Positions 32,683 through 60,234 are shown, counted from the stretch's first letter. The stretch: DNA of 64,000 bases from Candidatus Nitronereus thalassa (GCF_032191465.1 NZ_JAQOUE010000001.1:1736001-1800000), one strand, 5' to 3'. Notes: a model not told the origin generated them from the sequence alone. A program made the numbers and translations.

Positions 32683-33232
32683 AGTGATTCCCCTAAAAAA
32701 TCAAAAAACTTCAAATTTTCCGCAGAATTTGCAATGGTAACACCCCGTTTTTTAACGAATCAAGAGAACAAAAGACCTACCACGGCTTCAACCAAAAGGC
32801 CCAACCCAATAAGGCATATAGGGAAACGGTGCCTTGTCGATCTTTTATCGAATACCGAAGGAACAAGGAAATGATACGCAAAGGCTAGGAAAGGGCTTCT
32901 AAAAAGTCCGAAAGGGGGCCTAGGACTTCGGCATATCCTCAGGAGGCCGCTTGAGACCTTTTGGAGGAGACTCCTGGGAATTTTCCCATTCATCGGTCAA
33001 AGGGTACACCGCTTTGGCCTTATTCCGCCGATGAATCTGGGTTTGAATGCGGCGAGGTGGTGGGTCTTTTGACTTGTCTAGTCGGGATTTTGGGGGAGGG
33101 TTGTGCATATATTGATGGTAGCCTATGGCTAGGCCAAGCAACAACCCAATGTGGTCATTCCCGACATTTTTAATCGGGAATCCAGGTTTATTTTTATGCG
33201 GGGTATCGCCTCCGTACAAAGCCGGCATAAAA
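32683..33232. other. Intergenic stretch before nuoA with a partial R1 repeat
   Basis: 550 bases between mutM and nuoA. The part near mutM holds an R1 fragment (33151-33214). Between about 32920 and 33170 on the minus strand there is a stretch that could encode a basic, proline-rich tail (reading IGLLLGLAIGYHQY, then RRIQTQIHRRNKAK and a C-terminal PEDMPKS); it has no start codon with a ribosome binding site on its own and its frame runs through the repeat into mutM antisense, so it may be the remnant of a gene cut by the repeat. The nuo promoter must lie in the remainder. Confidence 0.45.
33151..33214 (+). repeat. Structured repeat R1, partial copy D
   Basis: Contains the leading R1 hairpin in a covaried form, ATTCCCGA (33157-33164) pairing with TCGGGAAT (33174-33181), then CCAGGTTTATTTTTATGCG and a GGGGTATCGCC remnant, as in the full copies where the stem is ATCCCCGA/TCGGGGAT and the next block reads GCGGGGTTTCGCCCC. 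The rest of the element is missing. Confidence 0.65.
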
Positions 33233-43154: not shown

Positions 43155-43694
43155 GACATGATATCGCCTCGGGCTCGAAAGTTTTTAATTCATTGAAGCC
43201 TTTTGGGGAAGCGGTATTCGGTGGAACCTCTAATCCATTCGTCATCCCCGACATGCTTTATCGGGGATTCAGGTTTTCTGTAGTTTAGAATTTTGTGAGT
43301 GAGATTGGAATTTGTAGTTTTGATTAAGATTTATTTATAGCGGGGTTTCGCCCCCGCCGACGAGTCCCTTTTGTTTCGGCAAAAGGGACCAAAACCATGT
43401 CTGCCCGTGCGCGGCCCTTCGGTTCCCTGAGGTGCCGTTCCGAATAAAAATGGCTCAGGAACTCGCTCCGAGGTAAAAAGGCACCTCTACGCTCAAACAG
43501 CCTTCGCCGAAAAGCCGATTCGGAACAGCACCTCAGCCGCGCCCAACGCAGGGGATAGGAACCTTTGATGTTCTTATCTATCCTAAAATTTCAACAAAAA
43601 TTTTGATCCCCTGCTCCCTATTAAATGAGGTATTACGAAATTTTGGCAATTTGCATACGTATTCGCCAGCTTTTGATCATGATAAACTCTAACT
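43155..43694. other. Intergenic stretch occupied by R1 copy A
   Basis: 540 bases between mscS and the frameshifted membrane protein gene. The R1 element fills 43241-43556; the rest holds no gene. Confidence 0.6.
43241..43556 (+). repeat. Structured repeat R1, copy A
   Basis: Order of parts: leader hairpin ATCCCCGA/TCGGGGAT (43244-43268); GCGGGGTTTCGCCCCCGC hairpin (43340-43358); hairpin GTCCCTTTTG-TTTCGG-CAAAAGGGAC (43364-43389); CAAAACCAT; a long-range stem TGAGGTGCCGTTCCGAAT (43428-43445) with ATTCGGAACAGCACCTCA (43518-43535), 17 of 18 paired, enclosing GAGGT...ACCTC (43470-43487); and an end block CGCGCCCAACGCAGGGGAT. Sense to mscS. Confidence 0.85.
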
Positions 43695-44509
43695 ATGACC
43701 AAAATTCAATACCTTAAGACTTGGGCCATGCGAGTGGTTGAGAAGCCATGGGGAATTGCCGGCGCAGTAACTACAGGGCTTTTCTTTATAAACCCAATCC
43801 TGACGATCCTTTTCCCAAAGGTAGGACCACTGCCCCCTGATTTAGCTTGGCAAATACCTTTATCCATTTTGCTTGTTTTTTTAGGACCAAGGTTTTTCTA
43901 GTCCCATATTGGATGCACCAGGAATTGGAAAAACAGGTTGTGGAAACAAGCACGTCCTCTTTGTCTCTAAAAGCCATTGATATAAGACGGACCTACACAG
44001 CAGAAAACGATACCCCTTCAGGATTACATAAGGTTCTTTTGATTATTAAGAATGACTCCAAATTGGCAAAAACCATCCATGGGATAAAAGCCACGGTGCC
44101 TGGAGAAAAATTTGGTATTTCCTCAATTAATGGGGCATATTTAAAGCCTGAAGGATTTTTCACGTTCCAAGAAGTTACTCTTCATCCAATGGAGCACGCG
44201 GCATTTGAGTTATGCTCTCTACATGAAAGAAAAACCGTAGGCACAAGACTATCGTTTGGGTGTCAAACCAACGAGGGAGGAAAAGCTAGTTGGAGGGAAA
44301 TAGAACAACCAGAAAAGCAAACATTTCCTCTTTCTATTACTGCCAAAGATTACCCAGGACAAGAATGGACCATTGAATTAAAAATTTCTGAGACCGAAAT
44401 TTCTTGTGAGACGGTCTTTGTTGGTGAGCGCCGCAAAGACCAAAACCCTCCTCTTCGCAATTCCTCTGAGTTATATTTCCCAAATAACTTCATTAAATCC
44501 CACGGTTGA
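43695..44509 (+). pseudogene. Membrane-anchored protein gene split by a frameshift
   Basis: Two overlapping plus-strand frames look like one gene. The first part (43695-43901) encodes 68 residues with two hydrophobic segments (GIAGAVTTGLFFINPILTILF and WQIPLSILLVFLG). The second part (frame +2, from about 43890 to 44509) continues with a soluble, beta-rich domain of about 200 residues starting near VPYWMHQELEKQVVETS. Re-reading one base at the TTTTT run near 43893-43898 would join them. This may be a true inactivating deletion, a sequencing error at the homopolymer, or (less likely) programmed frameshifting. No family recognised. It lies exactly between two inverted R1 copies, a setting that suggests an unstable island. 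Confidence 0.55.
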
Positions 44510-44855
44510 TCATCCCTTTTTTTCGTTTGGTGAAGTAGGATTAGTGGTCAAATCTTTTGTTGGGAGTTTTGCTGAATATATGACGCCAAAAGTTCAGTTC
44601 TACTCGCGTTGGGTGTGGCGGAGGTGGAGGCCCGAATCGGCCTCTTGGCGAAGGCTGTTTGAGTGGAGAGGTGGCTTTGCACCTCGGAGCGAGTTCCGGA
44701 GCCATCTTATTCGGGCCGGAATCGGAGGGACCCCAGAGATCCTGCAGCCTTTAGCAGGATCTCTGGGGCCGCGCACAGGCGAGAATGGTTTTGGGCACTT
44801 TTGCCGAAACAAAAGTGCCTCGTCGCGCGGGGCGAAACCCCGCATAATGAACTTG
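44510..44855. other. Intergenic stretch occupied by R1 copy B
   Basis: 346 bases between the frameshifted gene and the M48 protease. R1 copy B fills 44605-44848. The frames that run through it on both strands are by-products of the repeat. Confidence 0.6.
44605..44848 (-). repeat. Structured repeat R1, copy B (inverted relative to copy A)
   Basis: Read on the minus strand it has the same parts as copy A without the leader: GCGGGGTTTCGCCCCGC hairpin (44827-44843), GGCACTTTTG-TTTCGG-CAAAAGTGCC hairpin (44794-44819, arms differ from copy A but still pair), CAAAACCAT, the long-range stem GGCCCGAAT (44629-44637 / 44709-44717), GAGGTG...CACCTC (44668-44685) and the CACCCAACGC end. An additional perfect 15-base-pair hairpin with an 8-base loop is inserted at 44731-44768. 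It begins 8 bases after the M48 stop, in sense. Confidence 0.85.
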
Positions 44856-45800
44856 TTACGCTCCCATATAACTCTGAAACCGTTTGGTCAATACCGGGAA
44901 ACTCATTCCATCCCCATACTGCCCTAGCAACCCTTCAATTTTGCTAATCCGAGTTCCGGTCGATGGATGCGTGGTAAAAAATCTCGAATTGGCATGGCCC
45001 TCTTGGCCTTGTAATGTCTTCAAATAATCACGCAGGCCACCGGGGTGATACCCGGCGCGATACGCAAACTCGACTCCATAGACATCGGCTTCATATTCTT
45101 TGTCTTTGTCCATGCCTTTGGTAAAGAGTTTATCCGTGATTTCGTCAATCACATTGGAAAACATTTTTGGGTCCTTGTTCATCGCGGCCATGGTGACCTC
45201 GGAAACATTGGACAACAGTGCTCCCCGACGTATGGTCTCGAGCATATGCTTCTGCGTAATATGCGCGATTTCATGCGCCAACACCCCAGCGAGTTCGGCT
45301 TCATTCTTTAAAGTCTTCAATAAGCCAATCGTGACAAAGATATAGCCACCTGGCGCTGCAAAGGCATTTTGATCTTGGCTGTTTAAAATCGCGAAGTGAA
45401 ATTTGAGATTTGGTCGATCCGACACATCCGCAATGGTCTTGCCCACTAGATTAATATAGCGAGTCAACCGTTCATCTCGGTATTCTCCACCAAATCGGGC
45501 GAATGCTTCCACTGCCACCGCTTCACCCATGGTTATTTCTTCTTCCTCGCCAATGGGCTGTAAGGCTTGTACTACCCCCACGCCCTTTTTCAGCAGATCA
45601 ACATCTTTCTTTTTGACACCAAAGGCTCCCAACGCATCGAGCAGTCCAGGTTGTTCTTGTTGTTCTCCCTGGCTCTTTTCCTGTTGGGTTTCTTGTTTCT
45701 TTGGCTGTGGTTTGAGAATTTGATCAAAAAACCCAAAGCCTTCATAAGTAAAAACGGTGAGGCCAATAATCATGATAATTGCAACGGTAATGTGTTTCAT
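44856..45800 (-). CDS. M48-family periplasmic metalloprotease (BepA/LoiP-like)
   Basis: A 314-residue protein with a signal peptide (MKHITVAIIMIIGLTVFTYEGFG), a Gln-rich linker, and an M48 protease domain: zinc site HEIAHITQKHM (HEXXH) with a third ligand Glu in KEYEADVYGVEFAYRAGY. Homologues cut or assemble outer membrane proteins and remove misfolded envelope proteins. It is last in the operon that also holds the YdbH-like, YdbL-like, CHAT and SH3 genes and overlaps the SH3 gene by four bases (ATGA). Confidence 0.93.
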   Translation of the reverse strand: MKHITVAIIMIIGLTVFTYEGFGFFDQILKPQPKKQETQQEKSQGEQQEQPGLLDALGAFGVKKKDVDLLKKGVGVVQALQPIGEEEEITMGEAVAVEAFARFGGEYRDERLTRYINLVGKTIADVSDRPNLKFHFAILNSQDQNAFAAPGGYIFVTIGLLKTLKNEAELAGVLAHEIAHITQKHMLETIRRGALLSNVSEVTMAAMNKDPKMFSNVIDEITDKLFTKGMDKDKEYEADVYGVEFAYRAGYHPGGLRDYLKTLQGQEGHANSRFFTTHPSTGTRISKIEGLLGQYGDGMSFPVLTKRFQSYMGA

Positions 45801-46312
45801 TGGCCACCTCCTGAATAATCACCCACGCTACCGGCTCGTTGAAATTCTGCTAATTCCGCATCCGACACGCCAAACGCCACCATCGCATCGACCGACCGTC
45901 GATGAGCGGGATCAATATTTTTCCCCTGCGCATATTGTTCGGTCGTCTCCTTAAGCCCACGGATACTCCCTCCCGAACGGGATTCCCGTGCCGCAATTGT
46001 CGTCTTTCCGGTTAATCCCGAGAGTGAGCTCCCGCTCGATTTTCCCGCAGGTTTGTCATCAGACAACTTAAATTTAAACACCCATCCGGACTGCCCATTG
46101 GGCAGTTTGACCTGATACTGCCGGCCATCTTTCTTGACGACTTGCACTTGATCTCCGACACCAAGCGTGCCCACAACTTTTGAAGTCGGGGACTTTTCGG
46201 CGGTGACTTTCACCCCGCTTTTCTTGGCATACATCGTTTCAGCCTGAGATAGGCTCGGTAGGAGCACAAATGCCAACAGGATAAAGGATAATTTCAAAAT
46301 GATTGGTTTCAT
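45797..46312 (-). CDS. Exported SH3-domain protein
   Basis: A 171-residue periplasmic protein: signal peptide (MKPIILKLSFILLAFVLLPSLSQA), a bacterial SH3 domain (KSGVKVTAEKSPTSKVVGTLGVGDQVQVVKKDG...SGWVFKFKL) and a Ser/Gly-rich C-terminal tail with a short conserved helix (VDAMVAFGVSDAELAEFQRAG). SH3 domains of this type bind peptidoglycan or proteins. The ATG at 46312 has GAGG a few bases upstream. Translationally coupled to the M48 gene. Confidence 0.88.
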   Translation of the reverse strand: MKPIILKLSFILLAFVLLPSLSQAETMYAKKSGVKVTAEKSPTSKVVGTLGVGDQVQVVKKDGRQYQVKLPNGQSGWVFKFKLSDDKPAGKSSGSSLSGLTGKTTIAARESRSGGSIRGLKETTEQYAQGKNIDPAHRRSVDAMVAFGVSDAELAEFQRAGSVGDYSGGGQ

Positions 46313-46432
46313 ACATGCCTCATTGGTAATTTCCAGGATTGCCAATTTATCAAACTTGCTCGTCTGAGATGAGAATAAATACAAATAATTCTTCACTCGA
46401 TCCGTCTGACGCATGACGGCTTACATGTTCCT

Positions 46433-49400
46433 TCACTGATAATCTCCGACCAAATTGAATCCCGCCCAATAGGATGGGTGTGGAAAATCACGTTTGACCA
46501 TGAGCTGGGCCTGCCGCAAGCTCTTTGCTTTATTCATTGTGACATAATTGCGGTAAAAATGCTTCATAAGGACAGAGGTCGAAAGATCGTCCACTCGCCA
46601 CAGAGCGGAGACTAAGGCATGCGTACCCGCATAGATAAAGGCACGATTGAGGCCGATCAACTCGCCTGCATTGAGTTTGCCCAATCCTGTTTGGCACGCG
46701 CTCAGGGTCACCAGGTCCGCATTGATTTCCAATCCAAACACTTCATTCACCGTCAGCTTTCGATTCTTTGGATCGGACGACGATAGCCACAATGAGGAGA
46801 ACAATGGATTCACTTCGTCAAACTCGCCATGAGACGCCAAATGAATGATTCCGTATTTGGAAATGTTCTCGACAAACCATTCTTTGGTTGCTTTGGCCCC
46901 GGTGAGAATATCCATATCGGGATAATTCCACTTGATGCTCTGGGCCTCTAACTCCGCAAGAGGGAGATCATAATTGTAATTGCCCAAGTCTGGATTTCCG
47001 ATGGCCAATACCTTCGTACGTTTTTTGTCTTTCCGTTTGGCAAAGGTATATTCCAACACCGACGCCGACGGAGAGTAAAATATCGGATACCGATCAACGA
47101 GATATCCTTGATCACTCTTTAACGCTGAAAATGAGAGGAAATGGAGGGCGCCATCTGGAATAATGCCAAGATGTTCCACGCCTGCAAGATGCTTTTCCCA
47201 AGGTTTGATCAGCCCTGCATAGAGAGCACGCAATTCGGTGTCGACCGGCTCGGAGTTTTGGACAAAAGCCCGATATTGTCTGACCAGGGGCTCTATCGTG
47301 GATTCACCACCAGCCAACTTGAAAAATATCGTTTCGCTTTTTTTGATGAACCACACATAGGTTGTTTCTTCTCCTAATAGATACGACACAAGTGCCGTGT
47401 CTGACTCAAGCATTTCTTTCACTCCTGAAAGCTTGAGAGGATCGACGGACACAAAACTGCTTAAGCCGGGATTACGTTGTTTAAGTTCAAGGAGCGCCTC
47501 TTCATGGGTTGCCTTGGCTTCACGAAGTTTTTCTTGCAACTCGGCAGGCGCTTCATCATAGCTGCCAACCTCTTTGGTCAAGGCTTCAACTCGCAACGCG
47601 AGTTGCCCAATTTGGTCAAGGGCTCTCTGATCTACGGCATTCTTTAAGGTCATTTTCTGATTGCCGAGAAGATCAATAAAACTCCGTGACCGTGAACGCT
47701 CCAGATAATTAAACGCATCATCCGTTCGTCCCATTTCCACCAACAGCGAAATCGTCTCTCGGTAAAGATCTTGCTTGTTGGCCTGGAAGCTATTGCGCAA
47801 TTCATCGATCTTCAAGGCGGCACGCATCCCCTCGACGACATTCACGGCATCGTCATATCGACGAAAGGCCTCTTCGGCTTTGCCGGCTTCTCGAAGAAGG
47901 CCAGCCTGGCCTGCGGCCGCGCGCCAAAGCACTTCTTTGATCCCGTATTTTTTCGAAAGGTCATAGGCCTGTTGATAGTATTCCCCTGATTTTTCAGGTT
48001 GGTTCAATTGACGATGCACGTTCCCTAGTTCGAGCAATGCCTTGACCCAATTGATGGAATTTTTGATTTCCGCGCTGGTGTCAGCCGCCTGGGTAAAATG
48101 AGAAAGCGCCTCTTGTAAACGATCAAGCTTCAGAAGGGCCATGCCAATATTGCGGTAGTCATAACCCAGCCCCCAACGGCTGTTCAGACTTTCGTCAATG
48201 GCTTTTGCTTTCTCAAAGTATTCGAGCGACGTCGTATAGTCGCCTTGTTGCCGATAAATAAGCCCCAGATTATTCAGTGAAGAGGCTAACTCAGTTTTGA
48301 TATCCGATTTCTTGGCTAACTCCACCGCTTGCTTTAGATGAACTAACCCCTTGTCCAAATCATTCAAGGTCCAATAGATCAGCCCACGAGTATTTTTTAC
48401 CATGATCGTGAGTTGTGCATCTTGAGCCGCTTCGGCCTGCTTGCCGGCTTGTGAAAGATGCTGAAACGCCTCTTGATAATTGCCACGAAACCAGGCGGTG
48501 TTGGCCAAATACAAGTGGCCCGTGGCTAACAGATAGGGTGACTCTAGGGTTTTTCCTATTTTCATCCCCGCGAGGTAGTGGGTATCGGCCTCATCAAATA
48601 ACCCCATCTTTTCATAAGTCAGGCCGATTTCAAAAACGGTTTCAGCTTCGCCATTGAGGTCTTCTAAGTTACGGTACAGAGTGAGCGCCGATTGAAACTG
48701 TTCTCGGGCTTTTTCATATCGCCCCAAACGCAAATAATAAATTCGCCCGATGCGACGATGCTGAGTGGCGACATCCCCTATTTCGCCAAGCTCTTCATAC
48801 AGCGCAAATGACCGACCAAAATCCGTTAGCGCGGCAGAATAGGCCCCCATGTTTTCTCGCACAACACCAAGTTGGGCAATCCCTTCCGCCAAGCGATCTA
48901 ACTCCTCGGCTTTCGTCCACCATTGAATCGCCTGCTCCAAATAGCCGATGGACGCATCAAACTGTTCTAATCGTGAGTAAAGAATGCCTAAACGATAAAG
49001 GGCTTCTGAACGCCCCTCCGCTTGAGTGGATTCATCGAGCGAAGCCAGCAACCGCTCCTGATGAAACACCGCATTTTGATAATTCCCGACTTTGTATGAC
49101 GCATCAACGGCCAGTTTGGTGAGATCAGCAAAATCAGAAGATTTATCCGCATAATGAATCACAGACAGCGCATGTTCCATTTTTTGAAGGGCCGATCCAT
49201 ATTGCTCTTCTTGATACAGGTTGACCGCAGCAGATACCTCCCCATCATAAATAGCCGAGGCAAACTCCGCCCGTGCCTCCTCATTCATACCCGCATAGCC
49301 AAACAATTCCACAGGATGAGCACCAGTTTTGTCGCCCCACACTTCTTGGCTGGCAAAGGATACAGCCTCATCGGGAGGCAAATCATTGAGATAGGCCAAA

Positions 49401-52400
49401 TAGAGTGAGACAAACGATTTCGCCTGTGCGTCATCTTTTCGAATAAGCAGCACATGGGGAAAACCAGATCGCACCAAGGCCGAAACCAAAGCGGACTCCG
49501 AAGCATCCGTAGAAGACTGAGGTTGAAACACCACGGCGGTATGATGAGGTCGCCCCGCCAAACGCGTCAATGGCAAGAGTTCTCGAACCTGTAATTCTTC
49601 GGCCAACGTAAAATGATAGGCTTGGGGTGGCTTGGTCGAAATGAGCACTTCTAAACGATCGACGATTGGATGATCGTGTGCAGGCACCCCTGTTAAGGGT
49701 TCGGCGGAAAGCGGCACGTCTCCGGCTGTCAGCCCAGCATCTAATGCCAACTCTCCAATAATCCCAACCTTCGAATAAAAGACGCTGCGCTGATGGTATC
49801 CATTCACGATGTCATACAAGCCGGATACCTGGGTGATCGGTTTGGCAGGAGGAAAGGCCACTTGAACGCTTCTCGCGTATTCCCTGGGAATAGACAGATA
49901 CATCGGAGCTTCACTCGAGAGCCGCGCTCCTAGAATTTCGCCAATAGTCACTCGAGAACCCTGGGCTTCGAGTGGGAGATATTGGACTTCTTGTCCATCA
50001 TGGATAAACGCATGAAGCCGGTTCATACCCTCAACTACTTTGAGATACAGACGTTCGGGATTCAGAACCTCCGACAACAAATCTTCGGGCGAGGGATATT
50101 GCCAGAAATAACTGGTCGCCACCGGATATTCTTCATACAACCCAAACAATAGATCTTCTAATTCAGCGCGCAACACCTCGGTCTCGTCAGGTTCCCCAGT
50201 GCTCGGTATCTTCCGAATTTCTGCAAGCACCTGCCGAAGTTCATCCTCATACTCACCCACGCCAGCATAGAAAAAATCTTCCCCAAGGGATTTTTGCAAT
50301 TGAATTGCCATGGTTCGCATGCCGAGTCGCTCGGCGACTTCGAATGCCAGCGCATAGGCTTTCGCATCCACGAGTTGATCCACATACAAACGGGACAAGG
50401 TATGTAGGCTTGCCAACACCGCTGTGGCACTCTGAGGAGAATATGAAGCCTGTGACGGCAAGCCCAGCACCGCGTCATAGGCCCGTGCAAGCAAAGCCTG
50501 CTGCTCTGCTGCATCCTTGGCATACTCGGCTTGCGCCACCAACCCTATCCATCCCGTTAGGGCAGGTTGACGTTCGAGTAAAACTGATAATTCCTTTTGG
50601 AGGGAGAGAAAGGAATCTTCTTCGCCAATTTCCCGCGCAAGTTCCATTTTATTCAGTTTGAGAATCACCTGCATCGGCAACACCTGTTCCTCAGGAACCA
50701 CCTCCCCACGTCCCAACAAAGCCTCCGCTTTGGCGTAATAAGACCAGACCTTCCCCTTCACATCATAAAACGTATGCATGGCCTGGATAGCTCCATCCGT
50801 GTTCGAAGAACCTAAAAGCGTCGGTTCAGTCAAATGATATATCAGAAAGGCTGTATTGGTGAGCGCATAAAAGGTGGCCGCATCGGCTTGTTCTTCCGCG
50901 AGGTGCGTATCAAGGCCCTCAACTAACGCCGTGATCATCGTCCAATTAACGGGCTGGCCTTTCATGACATCCTCAGCCGCCAATCGAGACAGATTGTACA
51001 GATTGACGCCCGTTCCAAAAGACAATCCCAAGGTCGTGGTGTAACCGAGAGACTGCCGCATGAAGTCCATCGCTTGAGCATTCTCTCCCAACTGATGCGA
51101 CAACAACCCGACACGATTAAGCACGACTGCTTTTTCCGTGAGCTGCCCCACGTTGCCATCGGCAGAATCGGCCTCTGAAAGAAGCGCCAGTTTTTTCAGG
51201 TAATTGTCACGCGCTGGACCAGGTTCATCAAGTCGTTCATACGTGCCGGCGATATAGCTAAACATCAATTTCCGTTCGCCCTTTTGGTCAAATCCTTCGG
51301 CCGCCTGGGACCCACCCGCATCCAAGGTCACATCGACATTGAATAACCCCGTTCCCTCTTTTTTTTGTTTTCCCCCAAATTCACTAAGGGTATCCAGGCT
51401 GGTGAAATAACTTTTCAACGCCTGCTTTAGGGCCTTACGTCTTCCGCCCTCGCCCGAGGCACTTAAATTGTACAAACTCACTCCGATGTTCCGTTGAAGC
51501 AGCGCCAGATTTTTTGTATTGCCGGATTCGAGATTCAATTCCAAGGCCTGCGAAAACGCATCCACTGCCTGAGCATGGTTCCCTAAATCTTGGTGGGACA
51601 ACGCGATGCGTTCCAACAATTCGGCTTTCAGCGTATTCTGGTCCGCAGGTATACGATGATACGCCAATTGGTATTGCACCAAGGCTTCTTGCGTCCGGCC
51701 ACTTTTGAAACAAGCTTCCCCGTAGTTTTTTCGATAGAGAAGTTCGGTAATAGAATCCCCGGCGGGCTTATAGGAGGATTCTCGCTTATGATAGGCCCGG
51801 TATGCCTCATGAAAATTACCCAACGTCCGGTAGGTATTGCCAAGGTTGAGGAGGAGATTCGATTCTACTTCTGGGAATTGAAATTCATCGTTCAACTCAA
51901 GGGCAATGCGATATTCTTGCTCGGCTTTTTCTAGAAAGCCCTGGTTTCCCTCAATCTGTTCCTGTTGCTCATGCGCCCATCCCAATGTCTGATGGTAAAA
52001 CGAGACGCCCGGATCCAAACGAATGGCGGCTTCCAGCGGTTCAACCACCTTGGGTAACTCCAAAGGCTGCGCATACGAATGCGCCAAGGCCTTACTATAT
52101 TGATAGATCGGAGAATCGGGATTCTTGGCCACCAACTCTTGATACCTGGTTTGGACCTCAGCCAATTCCTTCAGCATGACTTTGGTTTCAATATACCCAC
52201 GATGTGCTTCAACCGAATCTGGATAATCCTGAGTGATCTTGTAAAACGCTTTAGCCGCGATGCGGACTTCACCAAGGGTTCGCTCCTTCTTGGCCTTATT
52301 GACCAACTGCAGAACCATCAATCGTTTGGCTCGGGCTAACAGCGCCTGATCTTCCTCGGTTCGAGCGACCAAAATGGCATACACCTCTGCGGCTTCTTCA

Positions 52401-54220
52401 TACCGTTCCGCCGAAGCCAAAATTTCTCCCTTTTGTCGATAGGCCTGTGTGACAAGAGCCTCGGAAGGAGGAGGGTCCTGTAGCAACTGATCAAGGGCTT
52501 GAATGGCTTTCAGTTGCTCCCCAGCTTCTTCATATAAATCCGCGATACGTAAACGGGTCGCCCCAACCAACATCAGCAATGTCTCGTGCTGCGTAATCAG
52601 GTCACGAAGAGAGGCCACCTTTTTATGAACATCTTCCCCTTGCTCGGACACGGTAATCGCCTGCGCTATCGCGCGTTTTCCCCACGAATTATCTTCTCCA
52701 AACATATTGATGACGTCGACGAACACCTTGACCAAGCTTTTTTGGTCGCCCAAAGCCCGATAGACGGTCCCCCTAGTGAACAACGCCTTTGCTCTGATTT
52801 CTTTGCTCGTCAAGTCATCCACACGCACTAAATAATCCAATGCCGAAAGGGAATCATCCACCAACAATTGTAAACGTCCGGCTTCAATCAGCGCCTGGCC
52901 ATAGACTTGTTGCTGTTCCCGGTGCGCCTCTCCAATCTTCAATATGTCCTGCGCCCCGGTCTGTACCGCACGTTTTAATTCTTCCTCGCTCATCGAAGAT
53001 TTGTTTTGGTACAACGGGAGTGCAATATCATGAATGTTGGCCAAGGCACCAAACTCGCCGGGAGTGTCGGCATAGGGGGTCATGACCTGTTGAGCCCGAG
53101 AAAATTCGCCGGCCTCGATTAATTTTTCCGCATACGCAAAATCGAACCCAGCCCGGGTTTTTTCATCAAAGGCTTGGGTTAAATTGTGTGAAATATTGGC
53201 CAGAACAACCAGGCCTTCCTGAAAATCGCCTCCATCCATCAATCGATCAGCCAGTGTTTTCGCCTTTTCAAACGAAGAATAATCGTTGAGAAATTCCTGT
53301 ATTTTAATTCGAAAAATATTCCCCTGCTCCAGATCCGTAAAATACACATCCCCTTGAGCCATCGCCGGATACAGGTGAAAATGACCGATGGGCGTCATTT
53401 GAAACAGACTGCTCTGTGCATCCTCTTGAAAATCCCACTGGCTCAACCAGATAGAAGACTCATCGTTGGCATCGACCACTCCATCCTCATTGGTGTCCTG
53501 GGCATAATGGGTAAATGCCATCACACCGTTGTCGCTAATCGCAGACCACATGTTCAGACCAGGGGTTGTGGGTACGGTACGACCATTATCGAGTGACTGT
53601 TCTTGAACGAATGTCAACGCGCCGCCTTGGGAAACCAAGATCCAGCCGTTCTCATTGAGGGAATAGGCCAATACGTCGGCCACAAGTATGGATTCCTGAT
53701 CATCAACCAACGATCGTTTCTTTAAGGATTGGACACCCGTCGTGACATTCTGTGAGAGATAATACACGGAAGCCCCATCCGATCCCCATGCCGGCAATGA
53801 ATCTGCAGTTCTTAAATCTGTGAGTCGCCGTTCTTCACCCGTGGTCAGATTCATCAAGTATACGTCTCCACGAGGATCGGACTTGTGGGAGACATATAGC
53901 AACCGACTCCCTTCAGCGTTGAGGGCAGGATCTCGATCAATGGAAGGATGAGTGGTAAGCTGGCGCGGCAACGACACCACACCAAGCTTCAAGGACTTCA
54001 ACCATATATCGGCATTCCCGGAGCGCTCGGACACGAATGCCAAAAACCTTCCATCGCGCGACGGGGCTGGAAAATAATCCAGTGCGGGATGGGTGGTCAC
54101 TTGGCGCACCTCGGCCGCATAGCCAGGCAAGCCACTCGCCAAGACTAGACTACTCACAAAAAGACAGGAGGCAAAATATTGAAACAATCGCCAGGAAGTA
54201 TCCAAGCATGTACTACTCAT
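46433..54220 (-). CDS. Giant exported TolB-propeller/TPR/CHAT-protease protein
   Basis: A 2595-residue protein with a signal peptide (hydrophobic segment residues about 12-35, cleavage near GYAAEV). In order: a TolB/PD40-like beta-propeller (about 40-310; HPALDYFPAPSRDGRFLAFVSE, SIDRDPALNAEGSRLLYVS) with an EF-hand-like calcium loop DTNEDGVVDAND near residue 240; TPR arrays (about 340-1100); a middle domain without a recognised fold; more TPRs (about 1600-2080); a coiled coil; and a C-terminal CHAT caspase-like domain. The catalytic dyad is visible: His2464 in HLASHGEF and Cys2509 in SACQTGLG, so it may be an active cysteine protease. CHAT proteins are mostly cytoplasmic, so the signal peptide is unusual. 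It follows the DUF1318 lipoprotein by eight bases. Substrate unknown. Confidence 0.88.
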   Translation of the reverse strand: MSSTCLDTSWRLFQYFASCLFVSSLVLASGLPGYAAEVRQVTTHPALDYFPAPSRDGRFLAFVSERSGNADIWLKSLKLGVVSLPRQLTTHPSIDRDPALNAEGSRLLYVSHKSDPRGDVYLMNLTTGEERRLTDLRTADSLPAWGSDGASVYYLSQNVTTGVQSLKKRSLVDDQESILVADVLAYSLNENGWILVSQGGALTFVQEQSLDNGRTVPTTPGLNMWSAISDNGVMAFTHYAQDTNEDGVVDANDESSIWLSQWDFQEDAQSSLFQMTPIGHFHLYPAMAQGDVYFTDLEQGNIFRIKIQEFLNDYSSFEKAKTLADRLMDGGDFQEGLVVLANISHNLTQAFDEKTRAGFDFAYAEKLIEAGEFSRAQQVMTPYADTPGEFGALANIHDIALPLYQNKSSMSEEELKRAVQTGAQDILKIGEAHREQQQVYGQALIEAGRLQLLVDDSLSALDYLVRVDDLTSKEIRAKALFTRGTVYRALGDQKSLVKVFVDVINMFGEDNSWGKRAIAQAITVSEQGEDVHKKVASLRDLITQHETLLMLVGATRLRIADLYEEAGEQLKAIQALDQLLQDPPPSEALVTQAYRQKGEILASAERYEEAAEVYAILVARTEEDQALLARAKRLMVLQLVNKAKKERTLGEVRIAAKAFYKITQDYPDSVEAHRGYIETKVMLKELAEVQTRYQELVAKNPDSPIYQYSKALAHSYAQPLELPKVVEPLEAAIRLDPGVSFYHQTLGWAHEQQEQIEGNQGFLEKAEQEYRIALELNDEFQFPEVESNLLLNLGNTYRTLGNFHEAYRAYHKRESSYKPAGDSITELLYRKNYGEACFKSGRTQEALVQYQLAYHRIPADQNTLKAELLERIALSHQDLGNHAQAVDAFSQALELNLESGNTKNLALLQRNIGVSLYNLSASGEGGRRKALKQALKSYFTSLDTLSEFGGKQKKEGTGLFNVDVTLDAGGSQAAEGFDQKGERKLMFSYIAGTYERLDEPGPARDNYLKKLALLSEADSADGNVGQLTEKAVVLNRVGLLSHQLGENAQAMDFMRQSLGYTTTLGLSFGTGVNLYNLSRLAAEDVMKGQPVNWTMITALVEGLDTHLAEEQADAATFYALTNTAFLIYHLTEPTLLGSSNTDGAIQAMHTFYDVKGKVWSYYAKAEALLGRGEVVPEEQVLPMQVILKLNKMELAREIGEEDSFLSLQKELSVLLERQPALTGWIGLVAQAEYAKDAAEQQALLARAYDAVLGLPSQASYSPQSATAVLASLHTLSRLYVDQLVDAKAYALAFEVAERLGMRTMAIQLQKSLGEDFFYAGVGEYEDELRQVLAEIRKIPSTGEPDETEVLRAELEDLLFGLYEEYPVATSYFWQYPSPEDLLSEVLNPERLYLKVVEGMNRLHAFIHDGQEVQYLPLEAQGSRVTIGEILGARLSSEAPMYLSIPREYARSVQVAFPPAKPITQVSGLYDIVNGYHQRSVFYSKVGIIGELALDAGLTAGDVPLSAEPLTGVPAHDHPIVDRLEVLISTKPPQAYHFTLAEELQVRELLPLTRLAGRPHHTAVVFQPQSSTDASESALVSALVRSGFPHVLLIRKDDAQAKSFVSLYLAYLNDLPPDEAVSFASQEVWGDKTGAHPVELFGYAGMNEEARAEFASAIYDGEVSAAVNLYQEEQYGSALQKMEHALSVIHYADKSSDFADLTKLAVDASYKVGNYQNAVFHQERLLASLDESTQAEGRSEALYRLGILYSRLEQFDASIGYLEQAIQWWTKAEELDRLAEGIAQLGVVRENMGAYSAALTDFGRSFALYEELGEIGDVATQHRRIGRIYYLRLGRYEKAREQFQSALTLYRNLEDLNGEAETVFEIGLTYEKMGLFDEADTHYLAGMKIGKTLESPYLLATGHLYLANTAWFRGNYQEAFQHLSQAGKQAEAAQDAQLTIMVKNTRGLIYWTLNDLDKGLVHLKQAVELAKKSDIKTELASSLNNLGLIYRQQGDYTTSLEYFEKAKAIDESLNSRWGLGYDYRNIGMALLKLDRLQEALSHFTQAADTSAEIKNSINWVKALLELGNVHRQLNQPEKSGEYYQQAYDLSKKYGIKEVLWRAAAGQAGLLREAGKAEEAFRRYDDAVNVVEGMRAALKIDELRNSFQANKQDLYRETISLLVEMGRTDDAFNYLERSRSRSFIDLLGNQKMTLKNAVDQRALDQIGQLALRVEALTKEVGSYDEAPAELQEKLREAKATHEEALLELKQRNPGLSSFVSVDPLKLSGVKEMLESDTALVSYLLGEETTYVWFIKKSETIFFKLAGGESTIEPLVRQYRAFVQNSEPVDTELRALYAGLIKPWEKHLAGVEHLGIIPDGALHFLSFSALKSDQGYLVDRYPIFYSPSASVLEYTFAKRKDKKRTKVLAIGNPDLGNYNYDLPLAELEAQSIKWNYPDMDILTGAKATKEWFVENISKYGIIHLASHGEFDEVNPLFSSLWLSSSDPKNRKLTVNEVFGLEINADLVTLSACQTGLGKLNAGELIGLNRAFIYAGTHALVSALWRVDDLSTSVLMKHFYRNYVTMNKAKSLRQAQLMVKRDFPHPSYWAGFNLVGDYQ

Positions 54221-54228
54221 AGTCGTCA

Positions 54229-54825
54229 CTACTTTTCCTTTTTGGTCCAATTCCCGTCGTCTAATTGAATCATATGGCCCAAGGAGGCTTTGTCACGGTT
54301 GAGTGACGCGAACATCTTTTTAACCCTAGGAAAATCTTTTTCCGAAAGCTTCTCGTTCGTCTCAATAACTCGACGCATCACAATTTCTCGATCAGCATTT
54401 TCTTCCTGGACCAAATTTTTCACAAAGGGCAGTTTGTCAGGGGCAACATTATCCGGTGCTAAGAGCGTAATCCCACCTTGGCTATTTTCCCCAAGAACTC
54501 CCTGGGACTTGTATTGGTCGATATCATCTTTATTAAACGACGTCCGCTGAAGGGCGCGGATCACGGTTTTTTTGCCTTGGGGAATTTCCGGAGCCTTTTG
54601 CAGCTGACCTTTTGGATCAATGTAACGCACGGAGGCGACTAGGAGTACCTCCTGGTTCAACTCTTCATAGGTTCCCAACACTTGATTTTCCAATGCGGTT
54701 CGTTCATCCACTACCGTGACGCCAACCAATGGACCGCCACACCCAGCCATCAACGGAAGGATTAGTCCAAGAAAGAGTTGGAATGTATAGTGATTGTCAT
54801 CGCGCGTGATTCTCCGAAACCCCAT
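54229..54825 (-). CDS. DUF1318 (YdbL-like) lipoprotein
   Basis: A 198-residue lipoprotein: signal segment, lipobox LMAGC with Cys29, then a domain with the DUF1318 pattern (YKSQGVLGENSQG, VQEENADREIVMRRVIE and the final LDDGNW). In E. coli YdbL is a soluble periplasmic DUF1318 protein working with YdbH (AsmA-like) and the small lipoprotein YnbE; here the YdbL-like domain itself carries the lipid anchor and so may combine both roles. AGGAGATAGG precedes the ATG. It lies between the YdbH-like and CHAT genes in one operon. Confidence 0.82.
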   Translation of the reverse strand: MGFRRITRDDNHYTFQLFLGLILPLMAGCGGPLVGVTVVDERTALENQVLGTYEELNQEVLLVASVRYIDPKGQLQKAPEIPQGKKTVIRALQRTSFNKDDIDQYKSQGVLGENSQGGITLLAPDNVAPDKLPFVKNLVQEENADREIVMRRVIETNEKLSEKDFPRVKKMFASLNRDKASLGHMIQLDDGNWTKKEK

Positions 54826-54872
54826 TGTTCCTATCTCCTCTTGGAATACCGTGACTGAAAATAATTCCGGTC

Positions 54873-57800
54873 TTACTGGAGTATCAGGTTCCCCTGACTA
54901 TCCAAACCATAAAATCTGGCGCCCACCATAATCATAAGGTCTCTCACACTTTCCCAGTCTGGGATACCTTTGGTCACCGCCTTGAATGGTTTCATTTTGC
55001 TGATGGGAATTCGATTGAGTTGAAATGGCGGCAGGAGGCCCTCACTAAACAAAATCTCCAAGCTCATCATTCCCCGAACCAGCTGCAATGACACTTTTGA
55101 GGGATTGGCCAGTTTGATTTGGGAACGTGCAGTCACCAAGGTAGGATTACTCCCTTCCGGGTCTAAAAATACCAACAGTCGATCCACAGCTTCCCGTCCA
55201 ATATGCGTGATAAACAATTGCAATTCGGTCTGGCTCAGATCCAGGGAGCCAGTCTCTTCTTCAAAAAAGACCGATAACCCAATGGTGGCATCTACCAAAC
55301 TATCCCCGGAAATTTTCTGCTTATCCTCGAGCAATTGATTGAGATCGAGGTGCGCAGCTTCGAATCGTCCGGCCACGCCAAACGCTTTGCCTCCGGTCAC
55401 CATGAGATTCCCGCCCAATCCGCCATCCAGAAGGTTCATGGCTAGGTTTTGAATCTGAAAGGTATCCTGTTCAAAAAGAATGTTCGCGGAAAAATCCGAG
55501 AGCGTCAAAAAGCCCAGGTCCAGACGCTCAATGGAGAAACTCTTTTCTTTGCCGTTGATTGCTCGCAGTTGAGACAGCACATCGCTGGGACGAAACACTC
55601 CTGAGCGAGGCTTTTTCCTCTCCTGGTCAATCCAATCCAAACGCTTTCGAATATGGATCCGCCCATCCATATTCTTTATGTGGGTTCCATCAAGGTTTAA
55701 TGCCACATCACGGCTTCCTAATTTCAGAGACACCGCAAGAGGCCCGCGTTCTTTTTTCAAGAGGTCCAGCCCCACCTTGGCTTCACCTGTGCCACTGAGG
55801 CCACTCGTTTCCAACACCTTGTGAAACAAATCAAGACTTATTTGAATGTTGGTCGAGACCTGGGAAAACAGATCAGGCAACGCCGTTATGACATCGCTCC
55901 TGCCTTCCACGACTTTCCGAAGACCACCGATCGTTCCTGCCATGGAAACGTCTGCTCCGTCCATGCCAACATGAAATGTCTTGACGGCCACTTCATCAAA
56001 ATTTTTCACCACTAGATTAACCTTTGCAAAAGTCCCGGACAGCCGCTCAAGGGGTAATCCCGGTGCCAGTAAGACCTCGGATAACGAAAAATCGGTTTCA
56101 ACCCGCGCCACAGGACTTTTCCCAGGTGTGAAAGAAATTGACACCGTACCTTCGGCGCCATTCACCTGATAGTCAGCCAATCCGCCATGCACATCGTTCA
56201 AGGAGATCGTGGTCGTAAGCGCGACGGGAATTTCCAAAGTTTGGATATCTTTTTCCTGAGGCACTCGACCAGAAGCCTTAAGGGTAAGGGCAATATCCCC
56301 ACGCGGATGTAATGCTTGCAGACTTTGAACCGCTTCACCTGAAAGTCTCCGCTGTAACTCTCCAATATTCACATAGGGAACCTCGACCGACACATCAAAG
56401 TCCTGCGACACTTGCTGAAAATCGGCCGCGAGGTTTACATCCATCAAGGCTTCGCTAGTGACCCGAAGCGCATCAACCGTAAAATGTTGGTCATCGATCA
56501 ATTCATGGAGCTTAGCGGACAGCGTCACTTCATCCAATCCCATTCTCAGCGCCGGAGAGCGATATTGAATGTTCTTCATGAACAGGTTGACCGTTTGCTC
56601 GGACTTCAACTGGCTGAGTTCGTAGGAAGAAGAAAGCCGTCCACTGAAGGAGGTATCCATGGCCAAATCCATTTGGCCCACCGTTGCCATACCCTCGTAT
56701 TGAAGACTTTCAAGATTCACGGTTCCTGTGACGGTTCCTCGAATCCCTTCCCTCTTGGCATTATACTCTGTTGCCATAGATATATTCATTTTGCTCAACA
56801 TTCCTTCCGCGGATAGCCCTTTCTCCTGAACATTCATGTTGGCAATACTCACCTTCGTAAAAATATCTACATCAAGCGGGCGATACTCGGCATCTAGTTT
56901 TCCTTCCACGTCTACGGTAAAAAAGTCCGGAGCAGGAAGTTTTTCAATAACAAGATCCTTCAGCAAATGTTGAGGGATGAGAGGCAAGAGATTTTCAAGT
57001 TGCGGCTCGATCCGCGTTTTGAGGGCAATACTCACAACCTGGGACGGGCCTGGATCTGGAATCGCTGCCCCTTCGATATGCACCTTCATCAGGTCCCCCA
57101 ACTCTACGACTAACTGTTTAATGGTTCCCTCTTTTGTACGATGATTCCCCAACCCGTCAAACCGTACGGCGAAGGGAAGGGTCAATGCCTCAAGCGGCTC
57201 TTGCGGTGGCACATGGGCGGTTCCTGACATGTTCAAATTCCCGGACACAGGCCCCAAGGCAAAGTAATCTCCAGAAAGCCGAACATCCAAATCTTCCACC
57301 CCATAATTTTGGAACGAGGCGTGTTTTGATTGAACGTGAACCTCCAGGCTTCCAGCCTCAGGCTCATTGTCCTTGATCCCGACATCCTTGAGATGTATCT
57401 CTGCATTCGTTGGAGTAAGAATCGTTTCAAATTTCGCAAGATCTGCTTTCAATCCTCTAATGATCAGACGGGTATTCACCATTCCGGTCAATCCCTGTTC
57501 CCCAAGGTCCCCCTTTACGAACAACGCGGGCAGGAGCAAGCCTGAGATTTTTTGATTGCGGAATTCCGAGGGCACAAAATCATTCACCAAGGCCAATATT
57601 CGTTCAAGGTCAAATTGTGCCTCGTCCAATGAAAGATCGACTGATGGGGCACCAAGAAAATGATCGATGGTTCCAGCCAGGGTAACAGCCAGTGCAGGCT
57701 CGGAGGAAAGGGTCACATGATCAAGCCCTAAGTGTTGGGAACCCAAGTCGGCCGTCACATCGAAGGATACACTCAGCGGAACACGAAGTTGTTGGTCTTC

Positions 57801-58460
57801 AAGGTCGACACCAATTTGCGCGACCGACACTTCACCCTTCAGCCGAGCAAGGTCTTTTTCCAAGCCGCCAGAAACCTCTACATTGAGGTCCCGGAGCCGA
57901 ACGGCAAGATCAGGCGAGACTTCCACTGCAATATTGGTCCGACTTATCACCAAGGTTTCGAGTTCCAAGGCCAAAGGGATGGGAGGTAATTTTTTAGGGT
58001 CGGAGGTGGCCGGAGCAGGCCCTGCTTCGGATTCAGGTGTATTCGCTTTCAGCTCAGCAAGATTCAGGGCAAGATCCGCGCCGTCAATTCGCACTTCGTT
58101 GATGTTCAATTTCTGTTGCAGCAATCCGAATAAGCTGTAATCTAACACTAAGCGATCGAGCTTAAGTATCGGTGGCTCACCTTCCACTTGCTGAAACACC
58201 ACCTCCTCAAGACTCAGCCCACTTAACAGGTTGAACGAGAGCTCCCGAATCCGCACCGTCCCATCTAACATGTCGGATAGCCGAACTTCTAATTCTTCAC
58301 GCACCAGTTCCGAAGGAAACCAAAAGGTTAATAACAGGGCAACGCCAACTAATAAAACCAACACAAAACCGACGAAGATCGTCAGCCATGTGAAGACTCG
58401 TTGAAATCCCGATCGTTTCGGTGCTTTGGTCAAGCTGGGTTCAAGATCTGGAAAAGTCAT
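54873..58460 (-). CDS. AsmA/YdbH-like inter-membrane lipid transport protein
   Basis: A 1195-residue protein with a short cytoplasmic N-terminus, one membrane helix (residues about 22-48) and a long periplasmic beta-rich body: repeated strands typical of AsmA-like proteins (VRIRELSFNLLSGLSLEEVVF, LKLDRLVLDYSLFGLL, NEVRIDGADLALNL). Family members form hydrophobic grooves that span the periplasm and carry phospholipids to the outer membrane. The hydrophobic C-terminal strand (YGLDSQGNLILQ) could pair with an outer-membrane partner as YdbH does with YnbE. First gene of the five-gene operon; the stop is 48 bases before the DUF1318 lipoprotein. Longer than E. coli YdbH (879). Confidence 0.85.
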   Translation of the reverse strand: MTFPDLEPSLTKAPKRSGFQRVFTWLTIFVGFVLVLLVGVALLLTFWFPSELVREELEVRLSDMLDGTVRIRELSFNLLSGLSLEEVVFQQVEGEPPILKLDRLVLDYSLFGLLQQKLNINEVRIDGADLALNLAELKANTPESEAGPAPATSDPKKLPPIPLALELETLVISRTNIAVEVSPDLAVRLRDLNVEVSGGLEKDLARLKGEVSVAQIGVDLEDQQLRVPLSVSFDVTADLGSQHLGLDHVTLSSEPALAVTLAGTIDHFLGAPSVDLSLDEAQFDLERILALVNDFVPSEFRNQKISGLLLPALFVKGDLGEQGLTGMVNTRLIIRGLKADLAKFETILTPTNAEIHLKDVGIKDNEPEAGSLEVHVQSKHASFQNYGVEDLDVRLSGDYFALGPVSGNLNMSGTAHVPPQEPLEALTLPFAVRFDGLGNHRTKEGTIKQLVVELGDLMKVHIEGAAIPDPGPSQVVSIALKTRIEPQLENLLPLIPQHLLKDLVIEKLPAPDFFTVDVEGKLDAEYRPLDVDIFTKVSIANMNVQEKGLSAEGMLSKMNISMATEYNAKREGIRGTVTGTVNLESLQYEGMATVGQMDLAMDTSFSGRLSSSYELSQLKSEQTVNLFMKNIQYRSPALRMGLDEVTLSAKLHELIDDQHFTVDALRVTSEALMDVNLAADFQQVSQDFDVSVEVPYVNIGELQRRLSGEAVQSLQALHPRGDIALTLKASGRVPQEKDIQTLEIPVALTTTISLNDVHGGLADYQVNGAEGTVSISFTPGKSPVARVETDFSLSEVLLAPGLPLERLSGTFAKVNLVVKNFDEVAVKTFHVGMDGADVSMAGTIGGLRKVVEGRSDVITALPDLFSQVSTNIQISLDLFHKVLETSGLSGTGEAKVGLDLLKKERGPLAVSLKLGSRDVALNLDGTHIKNMDGRIHIRKRLDWIDQERKKPRSGVFRPSDVLSQLRAINGKEKSFSIERLDLGFLTLSDFSANILFEQDTFQIQNLAMNLLDGGLGGNLMVTGGKAFGVAGRFEAAHLDLNQLLEDKQKISGDSLVDATIGLSVFFEEETGSLDLSQTELQLFITHIGREAVDRLLVFLDPEGSNPTLVTARSQIKLANPSKVSLQLVRGMMSLEILFSEGLLPPFQLNRIPISKMKPFKAVTKGIPDWESVRDLMIMVGARFYGLDSQGNLILQ

Positions 58461-58980
58461 ACCACCGGAAGAACACAGTCATTTGGTAATGATGAAGCTT
58501 ACACGTGAGTGTTGAAATACAAAGGGGGACTAGATCTTAGTCTAGCTTTAGCAATTTACCACGTAGAGAAAAAAAGAGAAAATATGGACGGTTTTCATTC
58601 ACCGGGATGCGGGTGAAGAGCTTATCTTGATTTTCTGTTACCATTCCCCTGCGTTGGGCGCGGCGGAATCGGAGTATCGAATTCGACTTTTCTGGCAAGC
58701 ATTCTCTGAGCGTAGCGAGTAGCCCAGCCATATAACTCGATACGGAGGTGGAGGCACCCGAACGGACGCGCACGGTCGGAAATGGTTTTGAGCCCTTTTA
58801 CCGAAACAAAAGGGACTCGTCGCGGGGGGGAGGGAGACTCCGAATAATAATCCTTATATTAAAAATTTCTGAATCCCCGATTACAGATGTTGGGGATGAC
58901 GGAAATGGGAAAAGGAGATGCTCTCCTTCGCTTTATCTCCAAAGAGGCCAGACTCCCCACCTTACCACTGCACTCCTAGA
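58461..58980. other. Intergenic stretch occupied by R1 copy C
   Basis: 520 bases between the AsmA-like gene and the AhpD-like gene. R1 copy C fills 58643-58902; the rest contains the operon's promoter region, in which I could not place boxes with confidence. Confidence 0.6.
58643..58902 (-). repeat. Structured repeat R1, copy C
   Basis: Minus-strand order: leader hairpin ATCCCCAA.../...TCGGGGAT (58873-58897), a degenerate CCCCCGCGACGAG block, hairpin GAGTCCCTTTT-GTTTCGGT-AAAAGGGCTC (58790-58818), CAAAACCAT, the long-range stem AACTCGATAC/GTATCGAATT (58734-58743 and 58674-58683, 9 of 10 paired, with bases unlike copies A and B) and the end GCGCCCAACGCAGGGGAAT. It starts 78 bases after the stop of the AhpD-like gene, in sense. 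Confidence 0.82.
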
Positions 58981-59444: not shown

Positions 59445-59593
59445 TTAAGGGTACCTCTAAAAACCAGGAATTTTTTGGGAGGGCAAGGAAGCTGCGCGCG
59501 GAAAACCGGAGTGTATGGGCGAATACATGAGGATTTGAGCACGCGGCTGACGCCGCCCTCGCGGAAAAGGACGGTTTTCAGAGGTGCCCTTAA
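59445..59593. mobile_element. MITE-like element R3
   Basis: A 149-base element with 21-base terminal inverted repeats (59445-59465 and 59573-59593; 19 of 21 match). The ends read TTAAGGG...CCCTTAA, and the inner arm contains CCTCTAAAAACC. No transposase is encoded. Ends of this form resemble IS5-type elements, so it may be a non-autonomous derivative. Its right end contains the stop codon of the gene at 59590-60234. Confidence 0.7.
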
Positions 59594-60234
59594 GGAATTT
59601 CGCCCCACACCGCAAGGCCCGAACGAAACACCAATTTTCTCGCAGAGGTAAACAGGACAATAATGTTATCATTGCCATCCACCTGCTCTATGGCTTCATC
59701 GCTGGATAAGGTTTCGGCAAAGAATCCACCCGTAAAGGCCGAGAAGCCTAAAACCCGCCGGTCCGTCACCACTACCGCCAGATGATCTTGTACCAGTGTT
59801 CGTCTATGTTCTTCTTGAACGCCTAGCTCCTGAATCTTCCACCGACCAGCAGCGCCCTGGAAACCCAACAGACGTTTATCGGTCCTGACAAATATAAGCC
59901 GCGGAGTCACCTGAATCGTCTGAACATTCTCAGAAATATCTAAACGCTGCACGCTCCATCTCTGGGAGGGTCCGGAAAACGCCAACAACCGACCTGGAGT
60001 TTGAGCCACGGCATTAAGTCCTTTGGATGCTGAAAACACCACAGGCTCTCCCGCGTGCAATCGTACCCCAATAAATCCACTCCCACTGCCCAGACCTATC
60101 ACCTGACCGTGGGTAACCACTACGGACACTTCGTCGGCAATTTTGTTTTGTCCTTGGGCCCAAGCCGATCCAAAAGTGAGTGGGATGCTGATGAACGTCG
60201 CACCTACCAGCCTCCAACCAACACGACCCTTCAA
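59590..60234 (-). CDS. Exported protein of unknown function, 3' end inside R3
   Basis: A 214-residue periplasmic protein with a signal peptide (SIPLTFGSAWA) and a repeated beta motif of about 45 residues (VSVVVTHGQVIGLGSGSGF, NAVAQTPGRLLAFSG, IFVRTDKRLLGFQG, AVVVTDRRVLGFSAF, IVLFTSARKLVFRSG) that suggests a beta-propeller with four or five blades. The TAA stop belongs to the R3 inverted repeat, so the insertion may have cut off or replaced the original C-terminus. The start overlaps the preceding DUF1295 gene by four bases (ATGA). Confidence 0.75.
   Translation of the reverse strand: MKGRVGWRLVGATFISIPLTFGSAWAQGQNKIADEVSVVVTHGQVIGLGSGSGFIGVRLHAGEPVVFSASKGLNAVAQTPGRLLAFSGPSQRWSVQRLDISENVQTIQVTPRLIFVRTDKRLLGFQGAAGRWKIQELGVQEEHRRTLVQDHLAVVVTDRRVLGFSAFTGGFFAETLSSDEAIEQVDGNDNIIVLFTSARKLVFRSGLAVWGEIP

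Follow-up and report, generated by a model that had tools for sequence, protein, structure and literature searches.

Structured repeats in the window

The window, i.e. the whole stretch of 64,000 nucleotides from Candidatus Nitronereus thalassa that we analysed, contains three copies (A, B and C) of R1, a DNA repeat of ~220 bases with a conserved fold. In all copies aligned, the parts follow in one common order, namely a GC hairpin, a hairpin with the loop TTTCGG and the box CAAAACCAT, and then the inner parts, which are a junction stem (GTGCGCGGC/GCCGCGCCC), a long-range stem (CCCGAAT/ATTCGGG), optional inner hairpins and the end block CCCAACGC. The features, with the basis for the assignment in brackets, are:

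33151..33214, plus strand: leader hairpin, then a degenerate GC hairpin; no recognisable R1 (sequence, profile, strict pattern)
43241..43275, plus strand: leader hairpin TCATCCCCGACATGCTTTATCGGGGATTCAG outside copy A; an accessory, separate repeat (sequence, strict pattern)
43340..43549, plus strand: R1 copy A, short type, left cassette border (sequence, profile match 43330-43552, covarying pairs)
43340-43357, plus strand: copy A, GC hairpin
43364-43389, plus strand: copy A, TTTCGG hairpin
43390-43398, plus strand: copy A, box CAAAACCAT
43407-43415/43536-43544, plus strand: copy A, junction stem
43437-43445/43518-43526, plus strand: copy A, long-range stem
43542-43549, plus strand: copy A, end block CCCAACGC at the inner edge
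43550..44604, plus strand: interior of the A/B cassette, with overlapping ORFs at 43695-43901 and 43847-44509 in different frames; no Pfam or PADLOC match
44605..44843, minus strand: R1 copy B, long type, right border of A's cassette (sequence, profile)
44606-44613, minus strand: copy B, end block GCGTTGGG on the inner side
44731..44768, minus strand: copy B, extra hairpin CCCCAGAGATCCTGC...GCAGGATCTCTGGGG, the source of the long type (sequence; length split in 84 copies)
44827-44843, minus strand: copy B, GC hairpin on the outer side
58648..58850, minus strand: R1 copy C, short type, solitary in the genome (sequence, profile)
58869..58900, minus strand: leader hairpin outside copy C; accessory, separate from R1 (sequence, strict pattern)

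An earlier, sequence-only reading of this DNA had described three full copies of R1. Their positions and the order of their parts are borne out by the sequence, the profile matches and the alignment, but the genome as a whole holds ~50 copies, and the extents had to be redrawn, R1 proper spanning ~43340-43549, 44605-44843 and 58648-58850. Copies A and B are not independent of each other, since they face inward from either end of a single cassette, A being short and B long. The leader hairpin had been counted among the parts of R1, but is a short repeat of its own. A strict pattern placed it no more than 130 bp outside R1 in only 6 of the 53 copies from this genome's fetched loci and in 0 of 48 from the congener, although 6 of the 7 leader hairpins seen in this genome lie just outside an R1 and in the same orientation. 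The supposed R1 fragment at 33151-33214 turned out to be a leader hairpin with a broken GC hairpin, where the R1 profile gave no match.

The cargo between A and B (43695-44509) runs over two frames, with a membrane-like N-terminal part and a second part of 220 aa, and is possibly one frameshifted gene or the product of a sequencing error. Copy C has no partner in this genome; in the congener, four R1 copies (+ + + -) lie beside the orthologous gene. The window also contains, at 59445-59595, a separate MITE-like repeat of ~148 bp that is not R1, with dozens of places of ~91-96% identity in the congener G002 and fewer in the congener G001.

Copy number, pairing and distribution

A Blast search of the organism's own genome (4.0 Mb, two contigs) with copies A and C returned dozens of relatives, and a profile built from 20 of them identified ~50 near-complete R1 copies in 23 neighbourhoods plus the window. 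Most of these form convergent pairs, with the end block facing inward; the two copies lie 0.6-2.7 kb apart and enclose one or two unrelated genes of low GC content. Among 63 intervals between neighbouring copies (<3.5 kb), 31 were convergent, 15 and 14 tandem and 3 divergent, and within clusters the order is nearly always +..+ -..-. R1 occurs in two lengths, the longer one having an additional variable hairpin. Of the 18 classified convergent pairs, 16 combine a long with a short copy, against an overall count of 55 short vs 29 long in 84 copies. The two members of a pair resemble each other no more closely than copies do in general (0.769 vs 0.774), which rules out local inverted duplication of one R1 as the origin of the pairs. 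At two loci (L049:6064-6155 and L126:6963-7054) two R1 heads, each with its GC and TTTCGG hairpins, overlap in head-to-head orientation and form a compact palindrome where a full R1 would be expected, possibly the remnant of a collapsed cassette.

Pairs are not the only arrangement. In genus g9, R1 variants lie between cassettes in same-orientation arrays, with one R1 per cassette, neighbouring cassettes using one R1 in common. In one such array, 8 R1 copies occupy 9 kb, with one or two genes between neighbours, of HicB-, VapBC- and DUF-type as named by eye from their translations.

Among 118 relatives, R1 is restricted to one family (f1). The core of hairpins plus box was also found in gammaproteobacteria, among them Acinetobacter and Xanthomonas, as scattered single copies; those of Acinetobacter and Xanthomonas have no cassettes, and those of Acinetobacter are not paired. 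At one site in A. baumannii another strain lacks the element and has a different intergenic segment instead, which is not a clean insertion. At the A. baumannii site of one of these elements (L281), another strain carries a variant, CTTACTTTTCACGGATGAAAAGTAAGCAAAA (L285:3230-3310), also of hairpin-plus-CAAAA design, which suggests a family wider than R1. Several of the A. baumannii records from the plasmid collection (within L281-L287) are 3.6-4.1 Mb long and look like chromosomes deposited as plasmids. Such chromosome-sized records are among the A. baumannii matches in that collection; no R1 match was found in IMG/VR, phages or true plasmids, and a phage or plasmid origin was rejected on this ground. 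Two side observations concern other repeats and RNAs: in a gammaproteobacterial MAG, a TwoAYGGAY RNA (Rfam; L149:4717-4856) and an R1-like core lie ~1 kb from each other, and another high-copy dispersed repeat is found in genus g4 (L099:15125-15290), with many copies in the genome G040.

Cargo and its turnover

Pfam searches of 88 cargo proteins matched 84 families, including helix-turn-helix, PIN, ParE, AbiEii, TIR, HNH, Uma2 and ORF6N, with many others found once each. The cargo consists mostly of toxin-antitoxin and defence-like genes, an enrichment that is qualitative, being read from the scan of the cargo itself. Cargo DNA looks foreign, with a GC content of 0.414 vs 0.495 in the flanks. 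The 25 commonest families included no transposase or integrase, a survey that a rarer single one could escape. The orientation of the cargo genes relative to R1 is inconsistent.

R1 borders exchangeable cassettes in the nitrite-oxidiser family Nitrospiraceae. The congener G001 has many chromosomal R1 sites in common with the genome of the window. At eight common sites there was no meaningful homology between the cargoes, the only matches being one of 16 residues by tblastn and one of 56 bp by blastn at a junction. The R1 copies themselves ranked first or within the top three among 40 at L041/L117, L044/L129 (both ends), L040/L128, L045/L120 and L047/L125, so the cargo turns over between R1 ends that are kept. 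In four of six inspected junctions the identity ends at the inner end block or within ~10 bases of it, and in the other two the similarity extends past it. At some common sites (L046/L133 and L052/L131) R1 looks chimeric, with an orthologous outer half and an inner half that is not; such mixed copies imply that recombination inside R1 also happens, or that R1 is replaced, and they are the outcome expected from plain homologous recombination within the repeat.

Cassettes also recur at unrelated places. A cassette of the window's genome with a RelE-like and a helix-turn-helix gene (L049) has R1-bounded counterparts in G001 and G031 whose places are not homologous, and G045 also has its helix-turn-helix gene. 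In genus g4, two species have one cassette in common within a hypervariable locus, at two positions that lie 5 kb from each other. One site is empty in the window's genome and filled in G001. In L098 and L103, a common block starts at the outer GC hairpin of R1 and continues through the cargo, and at L099 near-identical direct R1 copies lie on both sides of one cargo.

Conservation of the fold

We analysed covariation in 132 non-redundant R1 copies from several genera, aligned by sequence only, and compared the pairwise covariation with that in alignments simulated along the tree with equal substitutions per branch. After Bonferroni correction, 11 of the 49 proposed base pairs were significant against this tree-aware null. 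When the 3' partners were slid by one position, only 2 and 1 pairs were significant, and none when they were slid by two or three. The top-scoring column pairs of the whole alignment are mostly structure pairs or their immediate neighbours, and in a stricter test of all pairs, to which the structure was not given, 2-4 pairs pass. RNAalifold applied to 21 short copies showed double changes in 18 of 38 pairs. The outermost stem is among those that covary, and R1 has no fixed terminal sequence. The stems quoted in the sequence-only reading pair as written, and the compensatory changes that it pointed out hold throughout the family; its proposal of selection on structure is upheld, as the covariation exceeds the phylogenetic background. 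The stems persist although many of their letters differ between copies, so what is recognised is probably R1 folded as a single strand.

The same reading had proposed a function as RNA or as folded DNA. By raw minimum free energy of the RNA, the complement of R1 (read from the cargo outward) is more stable in 88 of 90 copies, and A.C cells outnumber G.U cells ~2:1 in the R1 orientation when one invariant U.G pair is set aside. Folding z-scores corrected by dinucleotide shuffling are, however, equally strong on both strands, so the strand bias of the free energies is compositional and was not used to assign a folding strand. Structural selection thus stands, and the strands give no decision between RNA and DNA; what the proposal had missed is the paired, convergent arrangement around exchangeable genes, which favours DNA mobility over a free small RNA and comes close to an alternative named in that reading itself, that R1 is the end of an element.

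Search for an enzyme and for known families

Rfam at the gathering threshold gave nothing at R1 in the window and in 14 gammaproteobacterial loci, and by E-value only chance-level matches in the A/B region, so a known RNA family was rejected for every copy tested. A search of the open-access literature by sequence string and by concept likewise found no report of R1, and no described repeat family matched it.

The integron integrase (TIGR02249) scored above the cut-off in 3 of 49 genomes and was not found in G000 (the genome of the window), G005, G012, G017 or G020; none of the integron-integrase loci fetched has an R1. With the integrase missing from most R1-rich genomes and R1 missing from these loci, an identity with integrons was rejected. 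The congener G001 has three integron-integrase matches above the cut-off (C39, C78 and C99), one with an internal stop, and no R1 near the one that was fetched. The Y1 transposase of RAYT type (Y1_Tnp, PF01797) had no match in G000, G005, G010, G012, G017, G021 or G026, and an explanation by RAYT/HUH enzymes was discarded because these R1-rich genomes lack it. No recombinase was seen inside the R1-bounded cassettes scanned, and none of the R1-bounded intervals scanned was found to carry a transposase. Lastly, we looked for target-site duplications around 35 outermost pairs, where the mean longest direct repeat was 5.09 vs 5.17 for shuffled mates and thus not in excess.

Interpretation

The explanation that we favour, with a probability of about 50%, is that R1 serves as the border element in a system of gene cassettes, in which exchange takes place at the inner edge and a putative trans-acting enzyme recognises the folded form. 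A long and a short R1, both facing inward, would enclose one or two small genes to make up a cassette. The inner edge of R1, marked by the CCCAACGC end block, would be the junction at which cassettes are acquired and lost, replace one another and stack up; at least one block of homology containing R1 starts at the outer GC hairpin. The enzyme, a putative recombinase or nuclease, may act on R1 as folded single-stranded DNA, as the integron integrase does on attC, and the exchange would be site-specific. The data themselves show the structure, the long/short pairing, the turnover of cargo between R1 ends that are kept and the return of a cassette at unrelated places; site specificity, single-stranded DNA as the folded form and action in trans we infer. 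More tentatively, at somewhat less than an even chance, we put forward a further-reaching proposal, in which R1 would be the site of a second, independent cassette system of the Nitrospirota, a folded site unrelated to attC and dif and with relatives in Gammaproteobacteria, through which a putative recombinase captures and shuffles toxin-antitoxin and defence-like genes. Several results weaken the border-element reading, namely that no recombinase was seen in the scanned cassettes, that most R1-rich genomes lack the integron integrase and the Y1 transposase, that target duplication is lacking, that some R1 copies look chimeric, that similarity extends past the end block at two of six junctions, and that in Acinetobacter the relatives are unpaired and one site has a whole intergenic segment replaced.

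The strongest competing explanation is that copies of a structured repeat undergo homologous recombination with each other. R1 would then be a self-spreading repeat of the REP or MITE kind, its fold serving its own spread or stability, and cassettes would move only by RecA-type recombination, with R1 as a portable 220-bp stretch of homology. This would account for the chimeric copies at common sites, the near-identical direct copies around one cargo at L099, the single cores without cassettes in Acinetobacter and Xanthomonas, and the failure to find a resident recombinase. We nevertheless regard it as doubtful, because it leaves unexplained the combination of long and short copies in pairs (16/18), the near-absence of divergent neighbours (3/63) and the stop of identity at the inner end block (4/6 junctions). 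In short, the border element is favoured by the pairing of long with short copies and by the sharp end of identity at the inner edge, homologous recombination by the chimeric copies and the missing enzyme.

The RNA-like covariation, the stability of the R1 complement as RNA and the ratio of A.C to G.U would agree with R1 being a transcribed structured RNA, or a 3' or 5' regulatory region of the cassette genes that, for example, insulates or processes transcripts. Such an element is improbable, given that R1 stands on both sides of cargo genes of inconsistent orientation, that the shuffle-corrected scores do not distinguish the strands and that Rfam has no match. We think it very unlikely that R1 represents the decayed ends of a conventional transposon family with its transposase lost or acting in trans. 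An inverted terminal arrangement with two distinguishable ends would fit this, as would the turnover of cargo, but the pairs show no target duplication, no R1-bounded interval with a transposase was found, the outermost stem covaries where a fixed terminal sequence would be expected, and neighbouring cassettes in arrays have one R1 in common.

If R1 is indeed a cassette border, this would account for the acquisition of toxin-antitoxin and defence-like genes by Nitrospiraceae, and would point to an undiscovered enzyme; were recognition of the folded site proven, R1 would be a new kind of gene-cassette system. Even if cassettes move by homologous recombination, R1 remains a family of structured repeats that Rfam lacks; it marks the sites of variable genes and can serve in practice to locate them. 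Either way, it forms pairs and arrays in one bacterial family and has scattered relatives across phyla.

Comparison with known systems

Like the structured RNAs HEARO and omega RNA in Rfam, R1 is a covarying multi-stem element tied to mobile DNA, although it reaches no Rfam threshold. With REP/REPIN elements and their RAYT transposases it shares the dispersed hairpin repeats in inverted pairs, but R1 is far larger and has gene cargo between the pair, and Y1_Tnp is missing here and in other R1-rich genomes. The pdif modules of Acinetobacter plasmids rely on XerC/XerD sites of ~28 bp. Similar to R1, they carry toxin-antitoxin and other genes between inverted recombination sites; R1 differs in being a chromosomal multi-stem element of 220 nt, and inspection of the alignment by eye revealed no dif-like block among the invariant columns.

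The closest comparison is with integrons, the textbook system in which single-gene cassettes are shuffled via folded sites. Their attC sites are recognised in folded, single-stranded form by the integron integrase, and have R'' (RYYYAAC) at the 5' end and R' (GTTRRRY) at the 3' end, which pair with each other. In the inspected alignments R1 has only GCCCAAC at its 3' edge and no partner GTTRRRY at its 5' edge, and it differs further in its length of ~220 nt, its invariant CTTTTGTTTCGGCAAAAG-like and CAAAACCAT blocks and its convergent long/short pairs. Most R1-rich genomes are also without IntI. The likeness lies in the small accessory genes, rich in toxin-antitoxin systems, in the presence of one folded site per cassette in arrays with no integrase nearby (as in CALIN), and in the compensatory changes in the stems. 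Having one site per cassette in arrays, together with exchangeable cassettes, is a likeness of action and not of integron membership. The best reading is that R1 is integron-like in action and unrelated in its parts; if so, it would be a second, unrelated folded cassette border, and this mode of gene movement would have arisen more than once.
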